Part shown: positions 51,864-54,260 of the stretch, in pieces
Position numbering within the stretch: position 1 is the first letter of the stretch
Layout of the letters: every line of letters starts with the position of its first letter
Assembly (NCBI RefSeq): GCF_002795845.1
Contig: NZ_CP011797.1
Location: 519,501 to 583,500, forward strand
Direction of reading: 5' to 3'
From: Reinekea forsetii
Lineage (GTDB): Bacteria; Pseudomonadota; Gammaproteobacteria; Pseudomonadales; Natronospirillaceae
Length of the DNA stretch: 64,000 nucleotides
The notes under the pieces: model-generated
What the model saw: only the letters and a program-made list of their open reading frames with translations
What the model was told of the DNA's origin: nothing
The model's database searches: none
Made by a program: the position numbers and the translations under genes

Positions 51864-52160
51864 ATGATGCAAATGGACATATTAAAGGGCTATCCGATCG
51901 GGTCATCCAAATTTTCATTCGGATTTTGGCTGGGGGTTTTGTTGTTTTATGTCCTGAAAACATATGGTAATTTCTGTGAAGATAGAGCCATAGAGATAAA
52001 TCAGCTGGTAATGCTTTCTATTCCTGTCTTTATGTTGCTATCTCATAAGATAGTCTGGGAGCTTATGCCGAATGCTACTCTAAGAAGATCAGTGGCAGCC
52101 CTACGATATATTATATTATTTTTTTGCCTGATCGGATTTATCGAATTGTTTATATGGTAA
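51864..52160 (+). CDS. small hypothetical membrane protein
   Basis: 98 residues with three predicted membrane helices (about 19-36, 45-62 and 78-97), including FGFWLGVLLFYVL and YIILFFCLIGFIELFIW. An aaaggaatg ribosome site precedes the start. AT-rich compared with the neighbouring operons. No family recognised. Confidence 0.55.
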   Translation: MMQMDILKGYPIGSSKFSFGFWLGVLLFYVLKTYGNFCEDRAIEINQLVMLSIPVFMLLSHKIVWELMPNATLRRSVAALRYIILFFCLIGFIELFIW

Positions 52161-52215
52161 TTTATTAGGGTAACTAAAATATGGTGATTTTACCATTTAA
52201 AGTCAATGGCATTCC

Positions 52216-52554
52216 ATGCGCCCAAACATCATGAGTGCTAGGCCTGCTAAACCTAAAAACTATCATCGAGACCAGTGCATAATAGTGATTTCAGCCTGCG
52301 TCCCGGTACCCATAATAATTGGACTGGAACTAAACTATCTAAATCCTATCGTATCGATTTTTATTCTTGCTGTGGCAACAGAATATTGGTTTAAGGATTA
52401 TAATCAGCAACTCGCTATGTATGAAAAAGCGTTAATTGATGCCAGAGTAAAGGAAGCGCAAGTGGCCAGTAGGGTTAATGAGAATATTGAACGCTATCAG
52501 CGAAAACAGCGAGAACGGAAAATGCAGGCGAAATCATGGCAGTTTTGGATATAG
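52216..52554 (+). CDS. small hypothetical membrane protein
   Basis: 112 residues: a basic N-terminus, two closely spaced hydrophobic segments (about 23-40 and 46-60), then a charged Glu/Lys/Arg-rich coiled-coil tail (about 65-105, ALIDARVKEAQVASRVNE). No close ribosome site is seen. Same AT-rich block as its neighbours; function unknown. Confidence 0.5.
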   Translation: MRPNIMSARPAKPKNYHRDQCIIVISACVPVPIIIGLELNYLNPIVSIFILAVATEYWFKDYNQQLAMYEKALIDARVKEAQVASRVNENIERYQRKQRERKMQAKSWQFWI

Positions 52555-52684
52555 TTTTTTAGGGTATCGATCCAGGCGTGACCGCCTCAGGCTGGGTTTG
52601 GTTTATACAGTTTATTTGCCGCTTCTAGATCAGTAGGCAGCTGCTGTTAAAAGCAAAGCATCAAAAAAAATTAAGCAGAATTTA

Positions 52685-52906
52685 GTGGTTTTAGTTCTGG
52701 CAATATTCATCGCCGAACTGGGTCTGATCATATTCGGAATTACTATTCCCTATGAGAGTCTTCTCTTGGGCGCTCCGCTCGTCGGTGGCACCCTTATAGC
52801 CGGTGAATTATTTGGTGTAACCAAGAATCAGCTGATTTCTGAGTTAGAGAAAGCCATACATAATAACTCTGAAGCCAGTCAATCGACAGAACCTGTAGAG
52901 CGATAG
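52685..52906 (+). CDS. small hypothetical membrane protein, possibly 5' truncated
   Basis: 73 residues from GTG 52685, with one or two hydrophobic segments (VLAIFIAELGLIIFGI, LLLGAPLVGGTLIAG) and a charged tail. The frame continues upstream without a start codon to a TAG at 52634, through a basic stretch (VKSKASKKIKQNL) that looks like a natural N-terminus. The original start may thus have been lost, or a rare start is used. Confidence 0.4.
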   Translation: MVLVLAIFIAELGLIIFGITIPYESLLLGAPLVGGTLIAGELFGVTKNQLISELEKAIHNNSEASQSTEPVER

Positions 52907-53297
52907 CGAATACTTCTATAAGCGCTATGTTTTTTGCACCACGATATGACCTTTACGGAGGAACTCGGCCGGCGACTCGTAGATTGTCGATTTAGCCAGC
53001 GCTCAGTCACCCAAAGGCCTCTTACCCTAGCACAACATCACGAAAATGGATTACACCTCTGCCAATAGTCGCTATAGTCGAGGCGCCGATGTTGCTTGAA
53101 CATCGTCATGGCACGGTATAAGGCGATCAGCCTATTTCTGTGTTAGAATCTAACTATTCTCCCCCCGCTTCAATAAGGCCGTCAATTTGACCGCCATAGA
53201 CTGCACTTCAGTCAACCCAGACCACTGGTTTCGCTTCGCTTGATTGCTGTAAGCGGAATCGACATTACTTAATTTTCTAGAGCTGAAAATCGATACT
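52907..53297 (+). other. intergenic region upstream of the Rho-like gene
   Basis: 391 bases, no recognisable gene. On the minus strand a 25-codon frame ending FLRKGHIVVQKT has no start and no match I know. A TTAGAAT near 53143 could be a -10 box. No leader ORF resembling rhoL is visible. Confidence 0.4.
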
Positions 53298-54260
53298 ATG
53301 ACGCGAGAAACATTACGTTTTAAAGTTAAACGAAAGACCGAGCCTAAACCAGACGATGCGCTAGCCAATGAGGTCTCCCATGACGACCCCAAAAAACGCT
53401 TTTTGAACGGCGTTGCCATCCATCCTTCCGAATGTATTCGCTTAGAAGCAGGCTCTGCGGAGTTCACCGCTAGAGCAATAGACCTCATCTCGCCCATCGG
53501 TATGGGCCAGCGCGGTTTAGTTGTTGCCTCGCCGGGCTGTGGTAAAACCACCATGCTAAAGCATATTTGCCAGGCGGTCGGGAACGCTTATCCGGAGATA
53601 AAGCTCTATGCATTGCTCATCGACGAGCGCCCGGAAGAAGTAACAGATTTCAAGCGCAGTGTGCCGGCAGAGGTCCATGCTTCATCCTCGGACGATAGCT
53701 ACGATCAACACGCCCGCGTGGCCAATGACCTGCTTAATATTGCCATCCGCGAAGCGGGTGAAGGTCATAATGTGATGATTGTTATCGACTCGCTCACTCG
53801 TTTGGCACGGGTCCACAATGCCAAACGTAAGAGCAGCGGCCGGACCATGTCAGGCGGCCTGGACGCTAACGCGATGGAAATACCGCGCAAGATGTTCGGT
53901 GCAGCACGAAATATTGAGAACGGCGGCTCGCTTACCATACTCGCCACCATACTGGTTGATACCGGTAGCCAGATGGATCAGGTCATCTTCGAGGAGTTTA
54001 AAGGCACGGGCAATATGGAAATTGTGCTCTCGCGGGATGTTGCCAGTCTGCGGATCTTCCCCGCGCTGGATATAGCGAAAAGTAGCACGCGGCGCGAGGA
54101 ACTGCTGATCAAGGCGAGCGATATCGGCAACGTGCGAATGTTACGCCGGTCTCTGAGCAATCTTAAGCCGGAAGAGAGCGCCAGCAAACTGGTAGACTTG
54201 CTGCAGATGCACCCAACCAATGCTGATCTATTAAAAGCTGTTCAGAGCGAGCAATCTTAA
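53298..54260 (+). CDS. Rho-like transcription termination ATPase lacking the N-terminal RNA-binding domain
   Basis: 320 residues, against about 420 for Rho. After a basic 33-residue tail it aligns with Rho from about E. coli residue 134 to the end, so the N-terminal helix bundle and the OB/cold-shock primary RNA site are missing. Kept are Walker A SPGCGKT with K83, catalytic E110 in LIDERPEEV, Walker B D164 in VIDSLTRLAR, and arginine finger R265 in SSTRREELL. Changed relative to E. coli are K181 to G80 in the P-loop and K326 to Q225 in the R-loop; Q-loop K283 is R182. ATPase activity and ring assembly are plausible; autonomous rut-site binding is not. Upstream stop codons in the frame rule out a simple missed longer start. 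Confidence 0.88.
   Translation: MTRETLRFKVKRKTEPKPDDALANEVSHDDPKKRFLNGVAIHPSECIRLEAGSAEFTARAIDLISPIGMGQRGLVVASPGCGKTTMLKHICQAVGNAYPEIKLYALLIDERPEEVTDFKRSVPAEVHASSSDDSYDQHARVANDLLNIAIREAGEGHNVMIVIDSLTRLARVHNAKRKSSGRTMSGGLDANAMEIPRKMFGAARNIENGGSLTILATILVDTGSQMDQVIFEEFKGTGNMEIVLSRDVASLRIFPALDIAKSSTRREELLIKASDIGNVRMLRRSLSNLKPEESASKLVDLLQMHPTNADLLKAVQSEQS

Follow-up and report, generated by a model that had tools for sequence, protein, structure and literature searches.

A Rho-type protein reduced to its motor domain in Reinekea forsetii, and the conserved clade to which it belongs

Rho is generally regarded as the product of one gene per genome, in which an N-terminal domain picks the transcript and a motor pulls it. 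In Reinekea forsetii, a window of 64,000 nt (the whole stretch of DNA that was analysed) contains a further rho-type gene that encodes the motor without this N-terminal domain, and the questions that it raises are what such a motor could do, how it could find a substrate, and where the gene came from. The reading that we prefer, with a confidence somewhat short of even, is that the short Rho is a member of a distinct clade of Rho-type ring ATPases that spreads horizontally, and that it would serve as a second RNA-moving ring, recruited by its own tail and regulated in cis through a conserved leader.

The short rho gene is a clean ORF of 320 aa with an ATG start (Table 1). In a profile search, the Rho model TIGR00767 covers the protein with model positions 125–414 of 415 only, at 344.5 bits, which is below the cut-off of this model (509.45 bits); the protein does exceed the cut-off of NF006886, a second model with the name Rho (372.8 bits; cut-off 315). 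Among solved structures, those nearest in sequence are of Rho proteins (chain 8hsj_A first, then 1pv4_A). The genome, a single contig of 3.66 Mb (99.99% complete), contains one full-length rho at another place (701.2 bits with TIGR00767), for which the first-pass annotation had advised a search. Residues 133–417 of this own full-length Rho align to the short gene at 47.7% identity (tblastn against the window, E 4.6e-81). K83, E110, D164, and R265 correspond to E. coli K184, E211, D265, and R366, and G80 and Q225 to K181 and K326, all with an offset of 101. The match from model position 125 and the alignment thus bear out what had been claimed at the outset, a motor-only Rho that follows a short basic tail and has ATPase residues at a constant offset from those of E. 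coli. At the level of sequence, a motor-only protein that has kept its ATPase residues is evident. The AlphaFold monomer model of the protein is poor (pLDDT 60.4).

Table 1. Features of the short rho locus, in positions of the window
Feature	Positions	Strand	Basis or remark
Short rho gene, stop codon included	53298..54260	+	320-aa ORF; TIGR00767 positions 125-414; NF006886 above cut-off
Conserved 36-nt leader immediately 5' of the ATG, proposed cis-element	53262..53297	+	Information profile of 37 representatives; sequence-only model R1
N-terminal basic peptide, residues 1-12, MTRETLRFKVKR; clade consensus MTRKTLSLKxKR	53298..53333	+	
Rho motor domain	53400..54245	+	tblastn with residues 133-417 of the own full-length Rho
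P-loop A77-T85 (ASPGCGKTT); G80 = E. coli K181, K83 = K184	53526..53552	+	
Catalytic Glu E110 = E. coli E211	53625..53627	+	100% in 95 short and 48 ordinary sequences
Walker B Asp D164 = E. coli D265	53787..53789	+	100% in both sets (95 short, 48 ordinary)
R-loop Q225 = E. coli K326	53970..53972	+	Clade: R 85%, Q 12%, K 3%
Arginine finger R265 = E. coli R366	54090..54092	+	100% in both sets (95 short, 48 ordinary)

Ordinary transcription termination factor Rho (TIGR00767/NF006886) resembles the short Rho over about 280 residues at 45–50% identity, with all ATPase residues and the Q- and R-loops in common, whereas the short Rho lacks the N-terminal domain, has clade-wide changes in the connector (L136-T137-P138 to G-V-A), at K181 (to G) and at E255 (to G), has a private tail and leader, and lies on a separate branch. 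A further clade-wide change is A273 to V. The NCBIfam model NF041509, 'Rho, short form' (paralog_Rho2), also describes a Rho of less than the usual length (360 positions), but the short Rho scores far below its cut-off (321.7 against 628 bits); at E ≤ 1e-165, this model matches none of 143 genomes of the class, and among 14 control genomes Corynebacterium glutamicum alone responds, below the cut-off. FliI, type III secretion, and F1 ATPases belong to the same ATPase superfamily and have the P-loop glycine at the place of K181, but are related to the short Rho at about 23–33% identity and 28–66 bits, compared with about 247–284 bits for near-complete motors of full-length Rho. A search of the open-access literature (PMC) found no description of a Rho in these bacteria that lacks the N-terminal domain. 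The single annotated clade record examined bears just the name 'transcription termination factor Rho', which has kept the clade hidden. The motor is of a known kind; what is new is a natural lack of the primary RNA-binding domain, together with the tail, the leader, and the solitary mobility of the gene.

A frameshifted full-length rho and an upstream domain split off from the motor were considered as causes of the shortness and rejected. When the N-terminal 130 residues of the own Rho of R. forsetii were compared with the window, the best match had an E value of 2.8 and was located elsewhere than beside the short gene; in the regions of up to 1.5 kb upstream of 105 short-rho loci, some of which end sooner, no match was found at E ≤ 1. 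Because no N-terminal domain matches upstream in the window or at these loci, neither explanation accounts for the shortness. The first-pass annotation was therefore right that the whole domain is absent, and the exon-like domain across an upstream frameshift, which it had named as contrary evidence, was not found. By sequence, the clade has kept the secondary RNA-binding site of Rho (Q-loop and R-loop) and is devoid of the N-terminal domain with the primary site. As a separate observation, the Rho proteins of three Puniceicoccales MAGs (L133, L134, and L136; 381–385 aa) have only 67–85 residues ahead of the matched motor, as against about 115–139 in most proteobacterial Rho, and are perhaps another case of a shortened N-terminal domain.

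Short rho occurs in 42 of 390 sampled genomes of the order and in 17 of 142 genera, R. forsetii included (E cut-off 1e-92, which excludes ordinary Rho). In a sample of the phylum, the eight genomes with a short rho (among 398) all belong to the same order as R. forsetii, and within the family of R. forsetii none of 21 other genomes searched, 6 of them of its genus, has one. A scan of named genomes retained 80 loci, 70 of which belong to the clade (70–78% identity) and 10 of which are ordinary Rho (44–50%). The hosts, some of them marine bacteria, comprise Halomonas/Vreelandella, Marinomonas, Marinobacterium, Amphritea, Neptuniibacter, Microbulbifer, Aestuariicella, Paraglaciecola, Colwellia, Kangiella, and many MAGs. 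L129, a MAG labelled Rhodobacteraceae, shares its leader stretch with a gammaproteobacterial MAG (L121) and may be mis-binned.

The 105 loci yield 99 distinct proteins, of which 95 were kept (≥300 aa and free of X); these full-length proteins have 312–334 aa. The dN/dS of short rho is about 0.02–0.2 among the unsaturated pairs listed, which shows purifying selection. The conserved short clade expected from a tree and the maintenance of the motor by selection, both proposed at first pass, are confirmed by these 95 proteins, which form one branch, by the invariant ATPase residues and by the low dN/dS; the short forms are conserved and do not have the character of scattered decayed copies. That they are truncated rho copies decaying without function, or products of a sequencing frameshift, is accordingly extremely improbable: 95 full-length copies have invariant active sites, leader and tail are conserved, and no N-terminal domain lies upstream. 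A few broken copies would fit such decay. The frame is broken in L132 and L143 (records of Halomonas sulfidaeris and Halomonas olivaria) by either decay or sequencing error, and the G092 copy has an in-frame TGA. In G041, which has an intact copy elsewhere, contig C2 carries at about 202386–202713 two remnant pieces of a second short-rho-like copy, the middle of which is gone; they have 55% and 52% identity to residues 1–65 and 276–317.

Residues of the motor were compared between the 95 short sequences and 48 ordinary Rho sequences, the latter mostly gammaproteobacterial. K184, E211, R212, D265, S266, T323, R353, and R366 (E. coli numbering) are present in 95 of 95 short Rho proteins, and the residues at 283–288 and 323–326 (Q-loop and R-loop) are within the range of the ordinary set. 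Position 181 is Gly in 99% of the clade and Lys or Arg in 48 of 48 ordinary proteins; the clade P-loop, PPG(S/C)GK(T/S), has the same glycine as the FliI- and AtpD-type proteins of the R. forsetii genome. In E. coli Rho, K181 contacts the γ phosphate (PMC11718236), and nucleotide handling or kinetics may therefore differ in the clade. Position 326 is Arg in 85%, Gln in 12%, and Lys in 3% of the short proteins (n = 95), and Lys in 69%, Arg in 25%, and Gln in 6% of the ordinary ones (n = 48). Because all three residues occur in ordinary Rho, the Gln of R. forsetii is unremarkable. A study of Mycobacterium tuberculosis Rho describes a natural Rho with a changed R-loop residue, Thr at position 326, that still terminates with slightly weakened activity; unlike the short Rho, this protein retains its N-terminal domain and has Met at position 320, where the clade has Leu (PMC8828861). 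The proposal of altered translocation residues thus stands in part: K181G is a trait of the clade, though as the P-loop glycine of F1 and FliI and not a defect as such, and K326Q falls within the normal range. A role in bicyclomycin resistance was considered and has no support, the cavity residue L320 being Leu in 95 of 95 short Rho proteins; L320 to Met gives this resistance in M. tuberculosis (PMC8828861). The R. forsetii copy itself deviates from near-invariant clade positions (K4E, P78S, and R191N) and could be drifting.

With motor and pore under strong selection, the short Rho most likely burns ATP and moves RNA. The loss of the primary site and the alteration of P-loop and connector residues would also suit a motor that has turned to a different polymer (single-stranded DNA or protein-bound RNA, for example) in a process unrelated to termination. 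We consider this improbable, given that the Q- and R-loop residues of the central pore stay within the range of ordinary Rho.

Concerning origin, the short-Rho clade forms one side of a branch in both trees, with support of 100/100 in the careful tree. With long branches present, grouping the clade with proteobacterial Rho is rejected (AU p 0.00021), as is grouping it with the gammaproteobacterial rows alone (AU p 0.00044). Subject to the caution that long branches call for, the sequence trees show the short Rho as a lineage separate from host Rho, and the first of these tests rejects a paralog that arose by copying of the host rho. Nearness to Phycisphaerales Rho in the tree is distrusted because it joins long branches.

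This separate descent bears on whether the short protein could be a regulatory subunit that enters rings with full-length host Rho, leaves each ring with fewer primary RNA-binding sites, and thereby tunes or damps termination. A full rho above the family cut-off is present in 42 of 42 short-rho carriers of the order, and the short Rho retains the two halves of the ATPase site between subunits; both observations speak for such mixed rings. Nevertheless, the clade is a separate lineage, 45–50% identical to Rho motors and passed between hosts, and a damping role would not require every catalytic residue; we therefore regard this possibility as unlikely. Its foreignness to host Rho and its solitary spread favour a separate ring for the short Rho, and mixed rings are possible.

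Distances among short Rho and among full Rho are correlated over 26 genomes (Mantel r 0.58, with 0 of 2000 permutations as high), so that much of the history of short rho follows its hosts. In several of the pairs listed, the dS of the short gene is smaller than that of rho (G364–G039, 0.30 and 2.10; G118–G145, 0.25 and 0.72; G331–G079, 0.14 and 0.66; G118–G361, 0.49 and saturated), which is not given by vertical descent alone; others of the pairs listed have the opposite direction (G118–G054, 0.38 and 0.17; G284–G335, 0.62 and 0.50). In 17 chosen pairs of loci, the end of homology is never farther than 27 nt from the stop codon; its beginning is inside the gene or at most 90 nt ahead of the ATG in 15 pairs. 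Together with the dS values, such boundaries show transfer between genomes as a solitary gene. Among 48 genomes listed for the genus of G046, which is Marinomonas as judged by the identity of the G166 protein with that of L079, 23 have a short rho, in some beside the same FAD-binding-type gene and in some elsewhere. In three genomes of one genus, including Spartinivicinus ruber, the short rho is on the main contig in one and on a plasmid with phage genes in another; little is common to these loci beyond the gene and about 100 nt on each side, with a further 460-nt block in common to two. The plasmid, pB of S. ruber (L147, 102 kb), has capsid, terminase, and holin genes, with the short rho on the opposite strand to the phage genes, and looks like a phage-plasmid with an added gene.

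The patchy distribution, the solitary transfer, and the position on this plasmid beside holin, terminase, and capsid genes raise the alternative of an accessory gene of mobile elements, that is, an anti-Rho or defence factor that alters termination for the element, or for the host against phage. We consider this alternative rather improbable. The 22 matching phage records match only as ordinary Rho-type proteins with less than 60% identity, IMG/VR has no match to the short-Rho peptide patterns, and 1 of 455 matching plasmid records belongs to the clade. Single neighbour matches to defence models exist, but the 25 most frequent neighbour families listed (142 proteins, 27 loci) include no recurring phage or defence system. 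In these searches, support for an origin from phage is confined to the one phage-like plasmid.

Because the rut-reading domain is missing, another route to the substrate is needed, and the conserved tail most obviously offers a candidate. About 38 residues occupy the place of the lost domain, with a basic start, M(T/A)RK(T/I)LSLKxKR, followed by a variable linker and then DPxKRFLNG. The strict start motif is present in 84 of the 95 short Rho proteins; the other 11, among them R. forsetii, have mostly close variants, and one of these (L121) has an undetermined base near the start. Among 2919 ORFs from the fetched loci and the window, 62 have the motif near the start, and all are short Rho (51 assigned by filter and 11 by eye); none was found outside short Rho. 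In the R. forsetii genome, a degenerate peptide pattern has one chance-like match with an internal stop, a weak test given that the variant of R. forsetii itself misfits the pattern. These alignments show a conserved basic N-terminal peptide where the domain was lost.

The second private element lies immediately upstream. In 37 representatives with less than 85% protein identity, drawn from 89 loci, positions -36 to -1 carry 0.16–1.40 bits each, whereas the stretch from -150 to -90 averages 0.08 bits and peaks at 0.28. Codon choice is above the expectation from the own usage of each gene, most at codons 3–5 (first 12 codons versus those after 30, Mann–Whitney p 0.014). A start-codon hairpin suspected by eye was not upheld by RNAalifold, which found no conserved RNA hairpin in the leader in the 37 sequences or in a 30-sequence subset. 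A sequence-only model of the leader (R1) was built from 32 chosen leaders, with the Halomonas form and one other divergent form omitted. It finds a single strong site per genome in five of five genomes (E between 5e-9 and 5e-7, no second match being better than E 0.31), where four of the five are hits by construction, their own leaders having been in the model. In R. forsetii the match is at G000:C1:572762-572800 (E 4.6e-7; next best in the genome E 1.3). No further sites indicative of a leader regulon were seen in the five genomes. The comparison shows a conserved 36-nt leader with one copy per genome in the five tested. We read it as a private cis-element, probably one that acts at the RNA level, since it reaches the coding start and continues beyond it; it could instead be a DNA operator.

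In the mechanism that we infer for the preferred reading, the short Rho would assemble a ring of its own, and RNA would be threaded through the kept central pore along the Q- and R-loops. The N-terminal peptide would bring the ring to its substrate, via a partner protein or by touching RNA, and action might be confined to a subset of transcripts or ribonucleoproteins instead of general termination. The leader, which continues into the first codons and is without a second site, would provide cis-acting control of translation, possibly autogenous. More tentatively still, the protein may be an orthogonal second Rho that occurs in nature: a motor-only ring, mobile between genomes, that acts on RNA with no need of rut recognition, takes its aim from a 12-residue peptide, and regulates its own synthesis through the 36-nt leader; if this is true, the Rho motor is separable from the choice of transcript and can be re-aimed. 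Counted against the preferred reading are the clade-wide K181G, the absence of a partner gene among the neighbours examined, a possible operator role of the leader, the Mantel correlation, the pairs in which short rho has the larger dS, the few broken copies, and the deviations of the R. forsetii copy. The existence of a conserved, selected motor-only clade beside normal Rho makes the capability of the motor without the primary site directly testable, as are natural mixed Rho rings and the tuning of termination by a horizontally acquired motor.

Around the gene, an operon with the small proteins encoded upstream was considered and rejected. The three small ORFs at 51864–52906 of the window (GC 0.40, compared with 0.546 for the window) have no family match in Pfam, NCBIfam, or PHROG and no match at any other fetched short-rho locus, so that the suggested co-occurrence of small membrane neighbours with short rho is not borne out. 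An operon or defence island of any other kind was also rejected: for 142 of 163 neighbour proteins listed, from 27 loci, no family is found in more than three proteins among the 25 most frequent listed per library, and no partner gene adjoining short rho was found among the neighbours examined. In the L081 MAG, short and full rho are 3.8 kb apart, and a linkage of the two was dismissed as unrelated genes lie between. In 33 of 68 loci (for example, L093:11012-12298), a gene for a DEAD-box RNA helicase follows on the other strand, a median of 72 nt downstream of short rho. It is found in Halomonas, Marinomonas, and one MAG, and not in the R. forsetii window, and possibly reflects a shared ancestral site or a functional relationship.
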